From a virus, in the IMG/VR virus record IMGVR_UViG_3300031703_000049, positions 1-25,452 of that record: a DNA stretch of 25,452 nucleotides. One strand, given 5' to 3'. The position numbers and the translations under genes are program-made. Shown here one piece after another: positions 5,638-23,149 of the stretch. Under the pieces are notes generated by a model, which did no database searches, was not told the origin of the DNA, and saw nothing but the letters and a program-made list of their open reading frames with translations. Position 1 is the stretch's first letter. Each line of letters begins with the position of its first letter.

Positions 5638-5667
5638 TTGACAAACACACCCCAATTGTGTTATAAT
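5638..5667 (+). promoter_or_regulatory. Sigma70-type promoter with extended -10, 5' of gp32
   Basis: TTGACA (5638-5643) and TATAAT (5662-5667) are both perfect, with an 18-bp spacer and TG at 5659-5660 giving an extended -10. It starts directly after the preceding TAG stop. The predicted +1 (about 5674) lies inside the stem of the terminator at 5668-5696. Confidence 0.82.
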
Positions 5668-12758: not shown

Positions 12759-13541
12759 ATGCATATAAAGAAAACAATCGTAATGGTAACAGGTGGTTTT
12801 GATCCATTGCATAGTGGACATATTGCTTATTTCAAAGCAGCCAAAGAATTAGGTGATATTCTCATAGTCGGTTTAAACTCCGATGAATGGTTAGAACGCA
12901 AAAAGGGTCAAGCGTTTATGTCATGGAATGAACGACTTTGTATAGTTAATAATCTATCAATGGTAGATGAAGTGTTCACATTCATGGACGATGATGATAC
13001 TGCTATAAACTTTATAAAACAAGTAAGAGCGCATTATCCTACTGATAAATTAGTCTTTGCTAACGGCGGAGATAGAACAAATGAGAATGTACCAGAAATG
13101 GTATTCGATGATGTCGAGTTTGTATTCGGTGTCGGTGGAGAGAATAAGAAAAACTCTAGCAGTTGGATATTAGACGAGTGGAAAGCACCCAAGACACATC
13201 GTGATTGGGGATATTATCGAATCTTACACGAAGATGGAATCACTACTAAAGTAAAAGAACTAACAGTTGAACCTGGCGAATCATTAAGTCTTCAGTATCA
13301 TTATGATAGACACGAGTATTGGCAGGTAACTTCGGGTGTTGCTACGTGTGAAATAGACGGTATAAGACATACACTGCATGTTGGAGAATCGATAGTTATT
13401 CCAACGACAGCGTGGCACAAGTTAAGTAATAATGGTCCCTTGCCATTACGTATCGTAGAGATTCAATCAGGAACGCGATGCGTAGAAGAAGATATTGTAA
13501 GAGCAGAATCTTGGTCAACCCAAGATATTGGTGATATTTAA
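12759..13541 (+). CDS. Nucleotidyltransferase-cupin fusion (sugar-phosphate metabolism)
   Basis: Two domains are fused in 260 residues. Residues 6-141 are a cytidylyltransferase-type (RfaE2/TagD-like) domain: GGFDPLHSGH (12-21) has the HxGH nucleotide-binding motif, VGLNSDEWLERKKG follows at 37-50, and KNSSSWI (131-137) fits the C-terminal (I/N)SS(S/T) loop. Residues 148-248 resemble the cupin half of type II mannose-6-phosphate isomerase/GDP-mannose pyrophosphorylase: RDWGYYRIL, SLQYHYDRHEYWQVTSG (177-193) and IPTTAWHKLSN (214-224). Likely metal ligands are H181, E186 and H220, with D183 where His is usual. The combination suggests activation and isomerisation of a sugar phosphate, for example in surface-glycan chemistry. 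Substrate is unknown. AGAGAAAATA precedes the ATG. Confidence 0.78.
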   Translation: MHIKKTIVMVTGGFDPLHSGHIAYFKAAKELGDILIVGLNSDEWLERKKGQAFMSWNERLCIVNNLSMVDEVFTFMDDDDTAINFIKQVRAHYPTDKLVFANGGDRTNENVPEMVFDDVEFVFGVGGENKKNSSSWILDEWKAPKTHRDWGYYRILHEDGITTKVKELTVEPGESLSLQYHYDRHEYWQVTSGVATCEIDGIRHTLHVGESIVIPTTAWHKLSNNGPLPLRIVEIQSGTRCVEEDIVRAESWSTQDIGDI

Positions 13542-14818: not shown

Positions 14819-15041
14819 AACTTTACTTGGTACCTATGATTTCGATAATGGGTACGGCGCATCGGTGATAATGAATGAAATATCATATGGTGGTAAAATG
14901 GGACTATACGAAATAGCAGTTTTACACGATGGCTACATATGTTATGACACAGATATCACAGATGATGTGCTTGGTTTTTTAACTAAATCTGCTGTTAATG
15001 ATATTTTAGAGAAGATATCGAATCTATCTCCCAAAACTTGA
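14799..15041 (+). CDS. Small hypothetical protein (80 aa)
   Basis: The ATG at 14799 is chosen over an upstream in-frame TTG at 14775, because GGGAA (14787-14791) sits about 8 nt before it. It overlaps the previous gene by 20 nt. The product (MSKPQLKTLLGTYDFDNGYGASVIMNE...) looks mixed beta/alpha and soluble, with YGASVIM and GLYEIAVLHDGYICYDT strands and a C-terminal helix. Its TGA stop lies inside the -35 of the next promoter. Confidence 0.58.
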   Translation: MSKPQLKTLLGTYDFDNGYGASVIMNEISYGGKMGLYEIAVLHDGYICYDTDITDDVLGFLTKSAVNDILEKISNLSPKT

Positions 15042-15065
15042 CAAATACATAAATAGTGTTATAAT
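15038..15065 (+). promoter_or_regulatory. Sigma70-type promoter, extended -10
   Basis: TTGACA (15038-15043), 16-bp spacer, TATAAT (15060-15065), with TG at 15057-15058. The -35 includes the TGA stop of the gene at 14799. The spacer contains CATAAATA (15048-15055), one base off the late box, so late use is possible too. Confidence 0.82.
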
Positions 15066-16007: not shown

Positions 16008-16035
16008 TTGACAAACTTTCAAAGTATGCTATAAT
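16008..16035 (+). promoter_or_regulatory. Sigma70-type promoter, extended -10
   Basis: TTGACA (16008-16013), 16-bp spacer, TATAAT (16030-16035) with TG at 16027-16028. The flanking CAAAAACTTGACA is identical at 17501. The predicted +1 near 16042 gives a 24-nt leader with GAAGGA. Confidence 0.83.
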
Positions 16036-16065: not shown

Positions 16066-16416
16066 ATGACAAAATTATTTGAAAAGACTAGGTTTATGAC
16101 TTCTGCTGGATATGTCCACTATGATTGTGGTGCTGATCGCAGGTTTGTCGCACGTTTCAAGTACAATAGGGCTAACGCTGGTCCATTTGTTACATTTCTT
16201 TGTAAGAACTTTGAAGTAGAAGAATACTTCACTCTATTAGAGGCTGGAAGCACTCCAGTTGCTATCCTAGAGACAAAAGGCTATGTTTCGCCTAGTGCTA
16301 AGAAACTTTGTAAAAAGTTGGGGTTTCCGTTGACACTTGAAGGCTACAAAGACGCAATTCACTTTATCGCATCTGAACAGGCAGAAAAGTTCAGTGCCCC
16401 GGAGTTCCATGTATGA
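16066..16416 (+). CDS. Hypothetical early protein (116 aa)
   Basis: Starts after GAAGGA behind a strong promoter. The product is soluble, mixed alpha/beta, basic in the middle, with four Cys (CGADRR, LCKNFE, KLCKKL) and no CxxC pair. Residues 27-48 (FVARFKYNRANAGPFVTFLC) resemble a beta-hairpin domain. The ending YVSPSAKKLCKKLGFPLTLE looks like a small helix-turn-helix-sized segment, which is speculative. The stop overlaps the start of the HD hydrolase gene (ATGA), so the two are coupled. Confidence 0.6.
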   Translation: MTKLFEKTRFMTSAGYVHYDCGADRRFVARFKYNRANAGPFVTFLCKNFEVEEYFTLLEAGSTPVAILETKGYVSPSAKKLCKKLGFPLTLEGYKDAIHFIASEQAEKFSAPEFHV

Positions 16417-16916
16417 TAGATTTAGACGAAGTACTAGCATTCGCTACTGAGGCACACACTGGCCAACTCAGGAAATACACAGGTGACGATTATATTGTTC
16501 ATCCAATAGCAGTATCAGAATTGGTTAAAATTCACGGCGGTAGTCTGGAACAGCAAGCCGCAGCCCTTTTACACGATACTGTAGAAGATTGCGATGTGAC
16601 CCTTGACGATATCGAGAAAGAGTTTGGTACAGATATCGCCTCTTTAGTTTATTGGTTAACAGATACTAGTAAACCAGAAGATGGAAATAGAGCAATTAGA
16701 AAAGCCATTGACGCAGAAAGATTGGGCAATGCTCCGGCGGAAGCACAATTTGTTAAAGTGGCTGATTTGATTGATAACACTAAGTCTATCGTTGAATTTG
16801 ATTCTAGTTTTGCTAAAGTATATTTGAGAGAAAAATCTATATTGTTGTCAAAAATGACAAAAGTTCACGATTCATCATTATTCACTTTAGCATATCACCA
16901 ACTGGAAATGTTTTAA
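16413..16916 (+). CDS. HD-domain alarmone (p)ppGpp hydrolase-like protein
   Basis: The 167-residue protein matches the hydrolase domain of SpoT/MESH1-type enzymes, which remove pyrophosphate from (p)ppGpp with Mn2+. Visible motifs: HTGQLRKYTGDDYIVHP (15-31; R20/K21 and H30), LLHDTVEDC (52-60; H54, D55, E58, D59) and VKVADLIDNT (114-123; D118, N122). All metal-binding positions of the family are present and no synthetase or regulatory domain is attached, so it is a stand-alone small alarmone hydrolase. GGAG is 8 nt before the ATG. A related nucleotide phosphohydrolase activity is the main alternative. The early promoter implies it acts during takeover. Confidence 0.75.
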   Translation: MIDLDEVLAFATEAHTGQLRKYTGDDYIVHPIAVSELVKIHGGSLEQQAAALLHDTVEDCDVTLDDIEKEFGTDIASLVYWLTDTSKPEDGNRAIRKAIDAERLGNAPAEAQFVKVADLIDNTKSIVEFDSSFAKVYLREKSILLSKMTKVHDSSLFTLAYHQLEMF

Positions 16917-17284
16917 TGGCATATATATCTGTACCAGAAGTTAAGGAAATCCGTCATGCTCTTAAAGTGCGTTTCGGAGAGAAACTGAAATTCTCGGTCC
17001 GAAGACGATTTCATCATACTGTGGTGGTTTCTATCTTATCGGGTGATATAGATTTTGAAGATATAGGACGTGATGCGCCACAACGAATTGCAACTTTTCG
17101 ATCTCGTGCATCTACCTATGGCAAACATAACTCATTGTTTGGTGACATTGTTAGTATAATTCAAACACCAGAACAAGGAGTGTATCCTTGTGAACTATCT
17201 CAAGAATATACTATATCATATTTTTATCATTTAGAAGTTGGTAAGAAAGGCAACCTTTATAAATTCGCAGGAGTAAAGAAATGA
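16916..17284 (+). CDS. Conserved phage protein, LPD29-like candidate
   Basis: 122 residues; the ATG overlaps the previous TAA. The N-terminal pattern ISVPEVKEIRHALKVRFGEK, then KFSVRRRFHHTVVVSILSG, looks like the small domain seen in large polyvalent proteins and as stand-alone phage proteins (LPD29 type). That is from memory and no catalytic residues stand out. The C-terminal 45 residues are aromatic-rich (YTISYFYHLEVGKKGNLYKF). It overlaps the next gene by 4 nt (ATGA). Function unknown. Confidence 0.5.
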   Translation: MAYISVPEVKEIRHALKVRFGEKLKFSVRRRFHHTVVVSILSGDIDFEDIGRDAPQRIATFRSRASTYGKHNSLFGDIVSIIQTPEQGVYPCELSQEYTISYFYHLEVGKKGNLYKFAGVKK

Positions 17285-17496
17285 TTAGAGCAAAAACTGA
17301 AAAGACAGAACTTGTTATTGATTTGACTGGACCACAGGGCAACGCATATTCTCTATTGGCTCAAGCAAAATTACTTGCTATACACTTAGAATTAGATTTT
17401 GATAAAATTAGTACTGAAATGATGGCTGGTGATTACGAAAATCTACTACAAGTCTTCGATGCTAACTTTGGAGACTATGTAGTACTTGAACGATAA
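17281..17496 (+). CDS. Conserved small phage protein (71 aa)
   Basis: Typical pattern: LVIDLTGPQGNAYSLLAQAK, then EMMAGDYENLLQVFDANFGD and YVVLER at the end, which I recall from many tailed phages as an uncharacterised small protein. It has AGGAG before the ATG and overlaps the preceding gene (ATGA). The frequent pairing with the preceding protein type suggests a joint role, not known. Confidence 0.68.
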   Translation: MIRAKTEKTELVIDLTGPQGNAYSLLAQAKLLAIHLELDFDKISTEMMAGDYENLLQVFDANFGDYVVLER

Positions 17497-17507
17497 TGTT
17501 CAAAAAC

Positions 17508-17535
17508 TTGACAGATCCTATATTTGTGTTATAAT
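17508..17535 (+). promoter_or_regulatory. Sigma70-type promoter of the AAA+ ATPase gene
   Basis: TTGACA (17508-17513), 16-bp spacer, TATAAT (17530-17535) with TG at 17527-17528. The predicted +1 near 17542 gives a leader of about 27 nt. It lies 12 nt after the previous stop. Confidence 0.84.
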
Positions 17536-17568
17536 TGTTGTATAAGTTAATTAAGTGAGAGAGCAGTT

Positions 17569-18582
17569 ATGAATAATGTCAAAATTGAAAACGGTTTATA
17601 TAACAATAAAGATATTAACGGGGTTTTTCCTTTAATCAAAGGTATTACGAAATCAAAAGACGGTTCGTATTTTGTAACAGTTAATGCTAGTGAATCAGAA
17701 GAAAAAGTATTCACGGGTCGTTCTAATGTGCGAGTTAAGATTCGCACTCATGACCAGATTACAATGTTAGACGAAACAGCGAAAGAAGTCAAAAAAGTTG
17801 TTGAAACTGAAGACCAAGCAATTGAACGAATTGCTGAACGTTTCAAGATCTTAGAAGAAATGACAAATGCCACTCTCGATGGAATTGTGAGAGGCATGGT
17901 TGTTACAGGGCCACCAGGTGTCGGCAAGACATACGGCGTTGAACAAGTTCTTGAAAAAGATAGTTTGTTTGATGTAATGGCTTCTCGACCAGTGCGTCAT
18001 AATTTTGTTAAAGGCGCCATGTCTGCTCTTGGTTTATACAAGATTCTTTACGATTATAAAGATGCGAAAAACATTCTTGTTCTTGACGATTGTGATAGTA
18101 TCTTGTTCAATGAAGATGCTTTGAACATTCTTAAAGCCGCGCTTGACTCGTGTAAGAAACGTAGGATTTCATGGAATACTGAATCTCACTTGTTGCGTAG
18201 GGAAGGTGTGCCACAGCAGTTTGAGTTTAACGGTTCAGTTATCTTTATTACAAACTTAAAGTTTGACAATATGCGTAGCACGAAAATCAAAGATCACTTA
18301 GATGCTATTATGTCTCGTTGTCACTATCTTGATTTAACACTTGATACGACTCGTGATAAGATTATGCGAATTAAACAAATTGCCCGAGACGGTGGATTGT
18401 TTGATACTAAAGGTTTAACAAAAGAACAAGAAGTAGAAATCATTGATTTCATGGTCGAGAAGAAAGATCGATTACGTGAAGTGTCGTTACGAATGGCTCA
18501 AAAAATTGCTGACCTACGTAACATGGATACTAATCGTTGGAAATTACTTGCTGAATCTACCTGTATGAAGCGTAACGTTTAA
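17569..18582 (+). CDS. AAA+ ATPase, conserved phage type
   Basis: 337 residues. Residues 1-100 are a non-ATPase N-terminal region with a small beta part (SYFVTVNASE, NVRVKIRTHDQ). Walker A GPPGVGKT (114-121), Walker B ILVLDDCD (169-176), sensor 1 near N229 (VIFITNLKFD) and a candidate Arg finger R250 (IMSRCHYLDL) define an AAA+ module; a helical lid follows. It is not gp44: the N-terminal region and spacing differ. Similar stand-alone ATPases occur in many phages without a defined role; remodelling of a DNA or protein complex is plausible. It is a one-gene unit between a strong promoter and a strong terminator. Confidence 0.82.
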   Translation: MNNVKIENGLYNNKDINGVFPLIKGITKSKDGSYFVTVNASESEEKVFTGRSNVRVKIRTHDQITMLDETAKEVKKVVETEDQAIERIAERFKILEEMTNATLDGIVRGMVVTGPPGVGKTYGVEQVLEKDSLFDVMASRPVRHNFVKGAMSALGLYKILYDYKDAKNILVLDDCDSILFNEDALNILKAALDSCKKRRISWNTESHLLRREGVPQQFEFNGSVIFITNLKFDNMRSTKIKDHLDAIMSRCHYLDLTLDTTRDKIMRIKQIARDGGLFDTKGLTKEQEVEIIDFMVEKKDRLREVSLRMAQKIADLRNMDTNRWKLLAESTCMKRNV

Positions 18583-18595
18583 GTAAAAGTTTAAG

Positions 18596-18637
18596 CGGCA
18601 TCGAGTTTTCTCTCTTTACTCGATTGCCGTTTTTTTA
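18596..18637 (+). terminator. Rho-independent terminator after the AAA+ gene
   Basis: CGGCA-TCGAGT (18596-18606) pairs with ACTCGA-TTGCCG (18618-18629), giving 11 bp with one bulged T, followed by TTTTTTT. Confidence 0.9.
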
Positions 18638-18655
18638 TATCCGCTGTAAAATGAC

Positions 18656-18684
18656 TTGTATTTGCCTTTAAAGTGTGTTATAAT
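18656..18684 (+). promoter_or_regulatory. Sigma70-type promoter of uvsW
   Basis: TTGTAT (18656-18661), 17-bp spacer, TATAAT (18679-18684) with TG at 18676-18677. The weaker -35 is offset by the extended -10. The predicted +1 is near 18691, and AAGGAA precedes the ATG at 18714. Confidence 0.78.
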
Positions 18685-18713
18685 GTCTTATACATCAAGG
18701 AACATCAGAATAA

Positions 18714-20159
18714 ATGAATAAATGTACAATAGTGATTAAAGACGAGGTTAACGTAAAGTTAGAAGGTCTTGATCCATCAACCCGAAGAAAGTGTAGTGAT
18801 AAGTTAAAGTTTTTCTTACCACACGCATTTCATATGCCCGCGTATAAACTTGGTCGTTGGGACGGTACTGTTCGGTTTTGTGACGTTGGCGGTCGTACTT
18901 TTTTAAACTTATTAGACGATGTACTGCCTGTAATCATAGAAGCAGGATATGAAATCGTAGTAGACGACAAGCGTGAAAGTGAAGAAATGTCTTTTGAACA
19001 CGTGACTGAAAACTTCTGGGAAGGAGTCACTTGGCCCGAAGGACATATGGCTGCTGGTGAACAAATCATGTTACGAGATTACCAAGTAGATGTAATCAAT
19101 CAATTTATATCAGCACCACAATGTCTCCAAGAGATAGCCACGGGCGCAGGTAAGACGATTATGACTGCTACTATGAGTAAAGTTATAGAGAAGTATGGCA
19201 GATCAATAATCATTGTTCCAAATAAAGACTTAGTTAGACAGACAGAAGAAGACTACAATAACTGTGGATTAGATGTTGGTGTTTACTTTGGTGATAAGAA
19301 AGACATAGGAAAGACTCATACGATATGTACTTGGCAGAGTTTGAATTCATTATTGAAGAAGACCAAGAAGGGTGAAGAAAACATCATGGACTTCATTGAA
19401 GGTGTATGTTGTGTAATCGTTGACGAAACTCACCAAGCAAAAGCAGATGTATTGAAAGATTTATTGACAACAGTGTTTGCTAATGTACCAATTCGTTGGG
19501 GATTAACAGGAACTATTCCAAAGAATGATTGGGAGTTCGCAAGTCTACGCAGTTCACTCGGTGATGTAATAAACAAGTTATCAGCAAAAGAATTACAGGA
19601 CCAAGGAGTGTTAGCAAACTGTCATGTCAATATTGTTCAGACACAAGAGACAGTAGCATATCCTAATTATCAGAATGAAATGACATATCTACTTGAAGAT
19701 AAGAAGCGATTAGAGTATATCGCTGAAATGATTAAGGGTATTTCAGAAACAGGCAATACACTTGTATTGACAAATAGAATTAAGAACGGAGAAGCATTAC
19801 AAGAATTGATAGCAAGTGCAGAGTTTGTGCAAGGGTCGATGAAGGTTGTGGACAGAAAAGAAGCATACAAAGAAATAAACGAAGGAACGAATACTATTAC
19901 GATTGCTACTTATGGAGTAGCGGCAGTTGGTATTAACATTCCTCGTATATTTAATTTGGTGTTGTTAGAACCAGGCAAATCGTTTGTGAGAGTTATTCAA
20001 TCGATTGGTCGTGGAGTCAGAATGGCTAAAGATAAAGATTTTGTTCAAATATGGGACGTTACGAGCAGATGTAAGTTTTCAAAACGTCACCTAACAGAAC
20101 GAAAAAAGTACTACAAAGATGCGTCATACCCTTTTACAATCGATAAGGTAACTTACTAA
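18714..20159 (+). CDS. uvsW: UvsW, SF2 DNA/RNA helicase
   Basis: 481 residues. UvsW unwinds branched DNA and R-loops and in T4 helps switch from origin- to recombination-dependent replication. The N-terminal DNA-binding domain shows the family pattern FFLPHAFHMPAYKLGRWDG (33-51). SF2 motifs: I ATGAGKT (142-148), II DETH (237-240), III TGT (265-267), VI QSIGRGVR (429-436). Length is near T4 UvsW (503 residues). Here it has a sigma70-type promoter, unlike T4 uvsW, which is known as a late gene. It heads a run of overlapping small genes to 23149. Confidence 0.93.
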   Translation: MNKCTIVIKDEVNVKLEGLDPSTRRKCSDKLKFFLPHAFHMPAYKLGRWDGTVRFCDVGGRTFLNLLDDVLPVIIEAGYEIVVDDKRESEEMSFEHVTENFWEGVTWPEGHMAAGEQIMLRDYQVDVINQFISAPQCLQEIATGAGKTIMTATMSKVIEKYGRSIIIVPNKDLVRQTEEDYNNCGLDVGVYFGDKKDIGKTHTICTWQSLNSLLKKTKKGEENIMDFIEGVCCVIVDETHQAKADVLKDLLTTVFANVPIRWGLTGTIPKNDWEFASLRSSLGDVINKLSAKELQDQGVLANCHVNIVQTQETVAYPNYQNEMTYLLEDKKRLEYIAEMIKGISETGNTLVLTNRIKNGEALQELIASAEFVQGSMKVVDRKEAYKEINEGTNTITIATYGVAAVGINIPRIFNLVLLEPGKSFVRVIQSIGRGVRMAKDKDFVQIWDVTSRCKFSKRHLTERKKYYKDASYPFTIDKVTY

Positions 20160-20659
20160 TGAAAATATTAACACCAGAAAACACCTGTTTTGAAATGAAC
20201 AGCCTACCAGAAGAAATTGAAGATATCAGATATTGCGTCATGGACGTAACTGACAAAGAAGACCCAGATTTCTTTTTTATTCCATTAGTATTCATTGAAA
20301 CATTCAGTGCGCCAAGCATGAGTCTCACTATTGGTAAACATACTATTGAAATGCCGATTGATTGGAACATAATGATTGGTGAAGCAGACCTCGGACTATT
20401 AGAATTCATTCCATTGACAAGTATTAACGAACGCCAATTTGATACGCTATTGACAAACCCTCTGAATGGGTATACAATGGATTGGCAACCAATTAAGATA
20501 AACAATGTATTCGCAGATGTGAAATGGTTCTTCCCTAAGTTGAAGTATGGACATATTCTTGCTATACCACTTGAGCATGGACCTAGTCCGAAATGCGCAT
20601 ATTTTGTAAAAGACTTAAATCGTATTCCGGACCAAATGAGCAGTTATGACTTTTTCTAA
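20159..20659 (+). CDS. Conserved T4-like phage protein next to uvsW
   Basis: 166 residues, start overlapping the uvsW stop (TAATG). The pattern FFFIPLVFIETFSAPSMSL (38-56), IEMPIDWNIMIGEADLG and LLEFIPLTSINERQFD matches an uncharacterised protein I recall beside uvsW or gp55 in marine T4-like phages. It looks like a beta-rich soluble protein. The C-terminal part has WFFPKLKYGHILAIPLEHGP. No enzymatic motif. Conserved synteny suggests a replication or late-transcription link; role unknown. Confidence 0.68.
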   Translation: MKILTPENTCFEMNSLPEEIEDIRYCVMDVTDKEDPDFFFIPLVFIETFSAPSMSLTIGKHTIEMPIDWNIMIGEADLGLLEFIPLTSINERQFDTLLTNPLNGYTMDWQPIKINNVFADVKWFFPKLKYGHILAIPLEHGPSPKCAYFVKDLNRIPDQMSSYDFF

Positions 20660-20852
20660 GAACCATAGAGTCGTAATTGATTCGTGTGACTTAGGCATGA
20701 CAGCATATGGCTGGTGCGCAGATAATATTCCAGCGTTAAGTTGGACAGTAGTATCGGATGAGAATTGTGATTCTTTTTATTTTGAAGAAGACTCACATGC
20801 TCAGAACTTTTTATTAGTACACGGCGGAAGGCATTACAAACATGGCGGCTGA
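20646..20852 (+). CDS. Small hypothetical protein (68 aa)
   Basis: The ATG at 20646 overlaps the previous gene by 14 nt. The product has four Cys and is acidic in the middle (DENCDSFYFEEDSHAQ), ending HGGRHYKHGG. Weak RBS, so translation is probably coupled. Its own stop overlaps the next ATG by 11 nt. Not recognised. Confidence 0.55.
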   Translation: MTFSKNHRVVIDSCDLGMTAYGWCADNIPALSWTVVSDENCDSFYFEEDSHAQNFLLVHGGRHYKHGG

Positions 20853-21333
20853 AAAGATACCATTAAACGAAGTACTAACAGCAATTGATAATAAAGATTT
20901 CAATTGGTACGCAGGTCTAACAGAAGAGAAAAAGAAAGCATGGGGCAGTTGGTTGTTCTTGCGTTATGCGAGTACAGGCAAGGGTAAAGACAAAGACGAA
21001 CTAATACTTAATACGAATGAGTTTGTAAACAAGCATTACAAAGACATCTATAAGCACGAAGAATTGATTTGGAAGTTATTCTGTTTGACTGGAACTGGTA
21101 AGAAACAGTATCACGAATGGATTAAGCCACCAAACGCAAAAATGAAGACAGACCCGATTACACAATTTGTATTAGGATTATTTCCAGATATGAAAGGTGA
21201 CGAGATAGAGTTATTTCAACATATCAATGGCGCGGATGGTATTAAACAGATGGCAATTGATTTGGGTATGAGTGATAAAGAGATTGGTGATATTTTCGGA
21301 AAAACTAAAAAACCAAGGAAGAAGAAAAAGTAG
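20842..21333 (+). CDS. Conserved T4-like protein, possible clamp-loader small subunit (uncertain)
   Basis: 163 residues, helical and basic, ending KTKKPRKKKK. The pattern PLNEVLTAIDNKDFNWYAGLTEEKKK, then NEFVNKHYKDIYKHEELIWKL and CLTGTGKKQYHEWIKPP, is one I associate with marine T4-like phages, where such proteins may be annotated as gp62-like clamp-loader subunits. I cannot confirm that, since similarity to T4 gp62 is not evident by eye and gp44/gp45 are not adjacent. The start overlaps the previous stop; GGAAGG lies about 11 nt upstream. The C-terminal Lys-rich tail suggests nucleic-acid or clamp contact. Confidence 0.45.
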   Translation: MAAEKIPLNEVLTAIDNKDFNWYAGLTEEKKKAWGSWLFLRYASTGKGKDKDELILNTNEFVNKHYKDIYKHEELIWKLFCLTGTGKKQYHEWIKPPNAKMKTDPITQFVLGLFPDMKGDEIELFQHINGADGIKQMAIDLGMSDKEIGDIFGKTKKPRKKKK

Positions 21334-22002
21334 ATGTTTGAATGTCAATATTGTAAAGTCAAATATAAGTCTGAGAAGACTATCATGGTTCATGTATGTG
21401 AGCCTAAGAGGCGCTGGCTGAATAAGGAAGAGAAATATTCAAGACTGGCACTATTTGCATACAATAGATTCTATGAAATTACACAGGCACCAGGTGGTAA
21501 AACATTTGAGCATTTCGTAGCAAGTAGATTTTATCTGGGATTTACTAAGTTTGGCAAACATATTATAAATATAAATGCGATCAATCCAGAAGAATTTATT
21601 GACTTTGTTATACGAAATAGTGTAAAATTAGATAAGTGGTGTTCTGATGCTGTATATGAAACTTATATTCAAGAATTGAATAGAAAAGAATCAGCCGACA
21701 GAGCAGTAGAACGAAGCGTATTGTTGATGGAAAAATGGGGTAAAGAACATGATAGAACGTTTAATGTATTTTTTAAAGAAGTCAGCAAGCCGTTGGCCAT
21801 ACATTATATTAAATCAGGACGTATTAGTCCTTGGGTCATTTTTAATTGTAGTCGTGGTATGGAACTAATTGATAGTTTTTCAGATCACGAATTAACAATG
21901 ATTAATGAATATTTAGATCCAATCTTTTGGTCAAGAAAGTTTGAGACTAGACCAGATGATGTAGAATTTGTTAAATCAATTTTAAAACAGGCAGACATGT
22001 AA
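21334..22002 (+). CDS. Conserved zinc-finger protein of T4-like phages
   Basis: 222 residues, starting directly after the previous TAG with AAGGAAG about 12 nt upstream. A short N-terminal zinc finger is visible: C4, C7, H20, C22 (CQYCKVKYKSEKTIMVHVC). The rest is helical (YSRLALFAYNRFYEI; FVASRFYLGFTKFGKHI; RISPWVIFNCSRGMELI), matching an uncharacterised family I recall in cyanophages. The finger points to nucleic-acid or RNA-polymerase contact, which would suit transcription control, but this is inference. Its stop overlaps the AbrB-like gene (TAATG). Confidence 0.65.
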   Translation: MFECQYCKVKYKSEKTIMVHVCEPKRRWLNKEEKYSRLALFAYNRFYEITQAPGGKTFEHFVASRFYLGFTKFGKHIININAINPEEFIDFVIRNSVKLDKWCSDAVYETYIQELNRKESADRAVERSVLLMEKWGKEHDRTFNVFFKEVSKPLAIHYIKSGRISPWVIFNCSRGMELIDSFSDHELTMINEYLDPIFWSRKFETRPDDVEFVKSILKQADM

Positions 22003-22205: not shown

Positions 22206-22659
22206 GGTAAAAGAAAAAAGTTTAATTGATGTGTTCTTAGACACACTCACTGGGAAAGATCCTGTTGAAGAATTAACAGAAGATTTCGAAGATGAATTCG
22301 CAGAACACTTAAATGATACATCGTCTGCTTATGTAGTTTCTACTAATACATTATCTACCACTGGGTTGACTGGCACCACAATAGCCTCAACTGGTATTTA
22401 CGCAGGCTCAATCACTGGCGGAACGTCAAATGGCACCGGTTCAATGTGGTCTAATAACACATCAACATCACATGCATATCAGTATGATGTAATAGAGGAA
22501 CAAAAAGAACTTAAAAAATCATTAACAAAAATAGAAAAACGCCTAGCGATTTTAGTACCCAATGAAAAGTTAAAAGAACAATATGAATCACTTCAGAGCG
22601 CGTATGAGCAATACTTAGCCCTAGAAGCATTACTATATGATGGAGAAGACAATGAGTAA
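22195..22659 (+). CDS. Conserved protein with Ser/Thr/Gly-rich centre and C-terminal coiled coil
   Basis: 154 residues from the ATG at 22195, preferred over 22189 because GAGGA (22182-22186) sits 8 nt upstream of the former. Order: acidic N-terminus (1-45); Ser/Thr/Gly-rich stretch (46-92: STTGLTGTTIASTGIYAG...); helix EEQKELKKSLTKIEKRLAILVP (102-123) and a second helix to the end. The RLAILVPNEKL(x)EQYE motif recurs in small proteins of marine T4-like phages that I recall as uncharacterised. It is probably an oligomeric, possibly structural protein. It overlaps both neighbours. Confidence 0.6.
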   Translation: MTTEVKEKSLIDVFLDTLTGKDPVEELTEDFEDEFAEHLNDTSSAYVVSTNTLSTTGLTGTTIASTGIYAGSITGGTSNGTGSMWSNNTSTSHAYQYDVIEEQKELKKSLTKIEKRLAILVPNEKLKEQYESLQSAYEQYLALEALLYDGEDNE

Positions 22660-23149
22660 AATTACACGATACACTTGGGAAGGTGTACAAGAAGCAGTCA
22701 GTTCAATTGCGATGCAAATGTATAAAGACGAATGGCGCCCAGACTATATAGTGGGAATTACTCGTGGCGGTTTGATACCAGCAGTATTGCTTTCACATGT
22801 TACTGATATCCCGATGCATACATTATGTGTTCAATTAGAGTCAGATGGCTTGGAAGAGAACACAGAACATAACGCCATTATGGCAACCGATGCTTTACGA
22901 GATAACAAGAAGATTCTTATCATTGATGATATCAATCGTGGCGGTGATGCGATTCGATGGATTATGGATGATTGGCAGGATGCTATGAACATGTCAGATG
23001 ATGAACAATCAGAAGCATGGCATAATAATGTAAGATTTGCATCACTGATTGATAATCCAAATAATCAAGTAGCAATGGATTACTGTAGTTCTGAAATTGA
23101 TTTAGATGAAGATGATGTTTGGGTAGAATTCCCATGGGAAAGTAACTAA
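22652..23149 (+). CDS. Phosphoribosyltransferase (PRTase)
   Basis: 165 residues from the ATG at 22652, which follows GGAGA by 5-6 nt and overlaps the previous stop. The type I PRTase fold is visible: YIVGITRGGLIPAVLLSH (33-50) and PRPP loop ILIIDDINRGGDAI (88-101). Usual loops read (D/E)D-(x)-(x)-(D/x)TGGT; here DDINRGGD is atypical. It resembles xanthine/hypoxanthine PRTases (Gpt type), so purine salvage is the likely role, alongside NrdAB. The C-terminus has IDLDEDDVWVEFPW, typical of Gpt-like proteins. The exact base is unknown. Confidence 0.8.
   Translation: MSKITRYTWEGVQEAVSSIAMQMYKDEWRPDYIVGITRGGLIPAVLLSHVTDIPMHTLCVQLESDGLEENTEHNAIMATDALRDNKKILIIDDINRGGDAIRWIMDDWQDAMNMSDDEQSEAWHNNVRFASLIDNPNNQVAMDYCSSEIDLDEDDVWVEFPWESN

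Follow-up and report, generated by a model that had tools for sequence, protein, structure and literature searches.

The locus raises the question of whether a short open reading frame of a T4-like phage encodes a genuine stand-alone small alarmone hydrolase (SAH) and, if it does, what the phage gains by carrying it. The window, that is, the whole stretch of 25,452 nucleotides that was analysed, is a fragment of a T4-like myovirus from an environmental sample and encodes terminase, a gp32-like SSB, UvsX, a UvsY-like protein, NrdA/NrdB, an AAA ATPase and UvsW, several of these T4-like names having been assigned from sequence and context. Its nearest isolates are PA5oct/Paride-type phages (52% for the terminase and 39% for the AAA ATPase), and no tRNA genes or other clue to the host were found in the contig. 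The features that bear on the question are listed here, L079 being a related locus:

16008 to 16035, plus strand: perfect TTGACA-16-TATAAT promoter with TG before the second hexamer, which heads the operon and is kept in L079
16066 to 16416, plus strand: operon gene 1, 116 amino acids, function unassigned (PHROG 22119), 94% identical in L079
16413 to 16916, plus strand: SAH (PHROG 990), 167 amino acids plus stop, from the list of open reading frames, profile matches, residues and a model
16916 to 17284, plus strand: operon gene 3, 122 amino acids (PHROG 10415; weak, below-cutoff LPD29 match)
17281 to 17496, plus strand: operon gene 4, 71 amino acids (PHROG 1933), with a 4-base overlap with gene 3
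17508 to 17535, plus strand: perfect TTGACA-16-TATAAT promoter before the AAA ATPase gene, which delimits the variable slot on its distal side
17569 to 18582, plus strand: AAA ATPase (PHROG 1250), conserved, anchors the slot on its downstream side
18714 to 20159, plus strand: UvsW-like helicase, conserved downstream anchor, used in the backbone tree and named from sequence and T4-like context

From the perspective of its family, the protein is matched by Pfam HD_4 (E=4.6e-16), by PHROG 990, annotated as 'metal-dependent phosphohydrolase' (E=8.3e-41), and, over the HD part only, by TIGR00691 of the RelA/SpoT family (E=7.4e-23), while a sequence comparison with the PDB yields Lmo0812, Rel and MESH1 as relatives (best E=7e-16); matches of this strength lie well outside what chance would give. 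The residues that an earlier sequence-only reading had listed as an intact HD site (R20, H30, H54-D55, E58-D59, D118 and N122) are all found at those positions and are invariant in an alignment of 27 SAHs taken from contigs of viruses and bacteria; K21, R96 and K97 are likewise invariant. The lack of a synthetase part, also reported in that reading, holds for the protein and, as absence of PF04607, for the whole 25,452-base contig. An AlphaFold2 model (pLDDT 95.9, pTM 0.91) finds its best structural match in human MESH1 (Z 24.4, rmsd 1.7, 163 residues, 30% identity), followed by RelH, a Pseudomonas aeruginosa SAH, SpoT and Rel; the first three are the top matches, with Z of 20.8-24.4, against at most 12.6 for HD hydrolases outside the RSH superfamily. 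The product is therefore a single-domain, hydrolase-only protein with the HD domain, the catalytic set and the fold of an SAH of the RSH superfamily. Family, active site, modelled fold and phylogeny agree, together with 48.6% identity to the tested phage enzyme PaSpo, so that the identification as a genuine stand-alone SAH is well supported.

The gene is also maintained. Overall dN/dS lies at 0.07-0.22, and at 0.07-0.15 in closer pairs, which are the more reliable ones because dS is near saturation for pairs that include the window SAH. Together with the invariant catalytic residues, these values rule out a degenerate or decaying gene, and the enzyme is very probably active. A recent foreign origin is unsupported by base composition (GC 37.7% against 36.6% for the window). 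The gene has no match in PADLOC, which is uninformative, as PADLOC is made up of models for defence genes and not for genes of counter-defence.

Relatives of the window SAH are found in 313 of 50,697 phage records (E<=1e-5), many of them already annotated as (p)ppGpp hydrolase or metal-dependent phosphohydrolase. The closest one with a published activity is PaSpo from the Salmonella phage SSU5 (JQ965645, SSU5_099), with the identity given above extending over residues 10-146. In the phylogeny the window SAH falls among phage SAHs, PaSpo included, and is separated from MESH1, Lmo0812, Rel and the Firmicutes SAHs, the support for this branch being 94/86 with the SAH of phage PVP-SE1 and 89/78 without that long branch; its position near SSU5 PaSpo was obtained in a tree built without the cellular paSpo, pbcSpo and Mesh1-L references of the subgroups of Atkinson et al. 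2011. PaSpo and the window SAH are both phage-borne, stand-alone members of the same phage group and have in common the motifs RKYTGxDY..HP, HD..ED, PEDGNR and D..N. They differ in that PaSpo has a longer C-terminal part and belongs to a phage of the phage-plasmid type, whereas the window SAH sits in a T4-like phage operon behind a perfect promoter, and in that PaSpo is the one that has been tested experimentally. PaSpo reverses the modification that FaRel2 places on tRNA and has been co-expressed for the purification of CapRel (PMC11559606; PMC9712102). According to PMC7644958, which recounts Jimmy et al. 2020, the toxicity of FaRel is relieved by the SSU5 and PVP-SE1 SAHs and by human MESH1. 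The PVP-SE1 enzyme, likewise an SAH of a Salmonella phage, shares 35% identity with the window SAH over residues 8-106 and has a very long branch. An SAH is also described from the lytic myovirus Adele (Pseudomonas phage, Pakpunavirus, PaAdele_032), with (p)ppGpp or (p)ppApp as the proposed substrate (PMC12846349); it is likened to the window SAH by description, and Adele belongs to a different phage group. Among cellular enzymes, MESH1 (HDDC3, human and Drosophila) resembles the window SAH in its whole-length fold and catalytic residues, but it is eukaryotic and lacks the PEDGNR stretch, whereas the hydrolase domains of SpoT and Rel correspond to it as an HD half (Z ~15-19.5 for most entries) that in those proteins is accompanied by synthetase, TGS and ACT domains.

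The same likeness to MESH1 raises the question of the substrate. Solved structures of MESH1 contain NADPH in one case and PAPS in another, and a main substrate elsewhere, for instance one of these two or a defence signal nucleotide, has to be considered for an HD phosphohydrolase of this kind. The nicotinamide-riboside contacts of MESH1, which we take to be W138, R142 and Y146, align in the profile alignment with A134, Y137 and K141 of the window SAH. These contact residues differ, so efficient cleavage of NADPH would be unexpected, and an efficient NADPH phosphatase of the MESH1 type is disfavoured. Orphan SAHs of bacteria accept more than one substrate, as XccSAH does with (p)ppGpp, pppApp and, weakly, NADPH (PMC9765508), and within this family the substrate is not readable from sequence, as changes that preserve the fold may alter specificity. 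The far poorer fit of HD enzymes outside the RSH superfamily to the model also counts against a different main substrate, which we regard as improbable.

In relatives of the enzyme, the 3'-pyrophosphate of (p)ppGpp, (p)ppApp or tRNA-CCA is cleaved off in a Mn2+-dependent reaction. By this token, a single metal ion (Mn2+ in the relatives) would be held by H30, H54, D55 and D118, and the enzyme would act on the 3'-pyrophosphate of a purine nucleotide or of a nucleotidyl end. A broad 3'-pyrophosphohydrolase specificity is rather probable. The phage would most likely make the enzyme from the strong host-type promoter and use it, again most likely, to undo products of host toxins, either 3'-pyrophosphorylated tRNA-CCA ends or (p)ppApp; (p)ppGpp would be lowered as well.

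With regard to its expression, the SAH is the second of four genes, each overlapping the next by 1-4 bases, behind the promoter at 16008-16035. Gene 1 overlaps its start by 4 bases, gene 3 overlaps its stop by 1 base, and a GGAG-like ribosome site lies ~8 bases 5' of its ATG. The sequence-only reading had imagined the gene under an early promoter; the site at 16008-16035 is indeed a perfect sigma70-type match, but it precedes the upstream gene, the SAH being second in the operon. Perfect TTGACA..TATAAT sites number four in the window, against 0.06 expected (5638-5667, 15038-15065, 16008-16035 and 17508-17535), and from their match to the host sigma70 consensus such promoters would presumably act early. 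All four carry TG before the second hexamer, with a spacer of 16 in three and 18 in one, and two of them have the 15-base string TTCAAAAACTTGACA in common; similar sites also occur in the related loci L009, L011, L012, L079, L082, L083 and L086.

The comparison of related loci shows that the gene comes and goes at this position. Locus L079 has the same promoter and gene 1 as the window (90% identity in DNA, 94% in protein), followed by a precise empty site, in which the stop of gene 1 adjoins the start of gene 3 with no SAH between them; operon gene 4 is missing there too. Locus L011, whose AAA and UvsW proteins are near-identical to those of L079 (combined branch lengths of ~0.01-0.02 changes per column), does have an SAH after gene 1, in the same slot, but a different one from that of the window. 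It groups with the SAHs of L009, L012, L003 and L016 (97/95), a group to which the window SAH does not belong, and a tree in which the window and L011 SAHs are forced to be sisters is rejected (p-AU 0.010). In L012 the SAH sits directly behind its own promoter. The slot is covered and holds no SAH in L082, L083/L085, L086/L087 and L089, which together with the empty site of L079 rules out the SAH as a fixed core gene of the lineage. In more distant loci (L022, L026, L028-L030 and L034) an SAH likewise occupies this slot, which lies between the UvsX/Nrd region and AAA/UvsW. SAHs are also found in different phage surroundings (L003-L007, L013-L020 and others).

Thus, the SAH is kept under purifying selection and yet comes and goes among related phages. 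The genomic trio of window, L079 and L011 is the main addition to what has been described for the family, of which the window SAH is, the trio aside, an ordinary further member. The three loci form a natural series of presence (window), absence (L079) and replacement by another SAH (L011). It has been known so far that phage SAHs neutralise toxSAS toxins when over-expressed; with the matched genes of the trio, the purpose itself becomes testable, namely whether phages carry SAHs to neutralise toxSAS.

Another contig (L002/L078, IMGVR_UViG_3300031599_000117) is 99.8% identical to window positions 16612-21913, so the SAH operon has been sampled on two occasions or more, which may go back to a single population. 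On other contigs, relatives of gene 3, the one with the weak LPD29 match, again have an SAH gene within ~1-4.5 kb (L017:1644, L020:1621, L031:626, L032:1822, L022:6053 and L026:6087), and a functional link or a shared mobile cassette is possible. The same variable slot holds a ribose-phosphate-pyrophosphokinase-like gene, as read from its translation, in L082 (3563-4513) and L009 (2583-3536).

A tight operon of small genes that includes an SAH is also what a toxin-antitoxin pair would look like, and bacterial toxSAS operons use SAHs as antitoxins (PMC11782079), so that the gene might be the antitoxin half of a phage-borne pair, as ATfaRel is for FaRel. Such a pair requires a toxin, and the RelA/SpoT synthetase domain is absent from the contig and from 33 other SAH-carrying phage records, in a search that was positive in 11 of 14 control genomes; nor did the neighbours starting at 16066, 16916 and 17281 match a synthetase. 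With no synthetase in 34 phage records and a search that works in controls, the antitoxin reading is mostly refuted and can be given hardly any credence.

Both roles proposed in the sequence-only reading, damping of the stringent response and neutralisation of toxSAS toxins, are possible for an enzyme with this sequence. The second has a direct precedent, since PaSpo neutralises FaRel and undoes the tRNA modification made by FaRel2, and the idea is already known, the action of phage SAHs against FaRel having been published in 2020. The absence of a partner synthetase, the strong promoter match and the turnover at the slot count for the counter-defence explanation. Turnover in a single operon slot is more in keeping with cargo that is specific to a host or a defence than with a fixed housekeeping function, and the patchy gain and loss suggests carriage against host defence, although this pattern also fits other roles in host adaptation.

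The main rival holds that the same enzyme was selected to lower host (p)ppGpp, keeping transcription, translation and nucleotide synthesis going when the stringent response is raised by infection or starvation. In its fold and active site the enzyme corresponds to SpoT, Rel and MESH1. The contig also encodes a ribonucleotide reductase, identified from its sequence, and the supply of nucleotides is therefore of importance to the phage. In a (p)ppGpp-free Pseudomonas putida, infection was more efficient for nearly half of 67 phages, but the other half fared worse (PMC12814882), and Paride, which is among the nearest isolates, needs relA/spoT signalling for dormant hosts (PMC10761892). A query with the window SAH gave no match in Paride or PA5oct, which, for a single-sequence query, is weak evidence of absence, and a link to the replication of Paride on dormant cells was dropped for this reason. 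The turnover of SAHs among near-identical phages is better explained by a host-specific target than by a general one. Selection for (p)ppGpp lowering is thus possible, though on the doubtful side.

Taken as a whole, we lean towards a functional phage SAH of the PaSpo/PHROG 990 type with a MESH1-like fold, which would mostly undo the products of host alarmone-synthetase toxins. Whether counter-defence is its main selected role is an evenly balanced matter. In a tentative, narrower version, the SAH would serve specifically for counter-defence, directed at toxSAS that pyrophosphorylate tRNA. It would be exchangeable cargo of a T4-like phage lineage, housed in a slot behind a promoter, and would be acquired, dropped or exchanged as the toxSAS of the hosts change. 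If this were true, the presence of an SAH would predict which hosts carry such systems.

Two further proteins of the window may be mentioned. At 12759-13541, a cytidylyltransferase-like domain is fused to a cupin of the mannose-6-phosphate-isomerase type in one protein, whose counterparts in related loci (47-75% identity) also lie close to NrdB or UvsY, and the late part of the window encodes a phosphoribosyltransferase-like protein at 22637-23149 (PHROG 8995).
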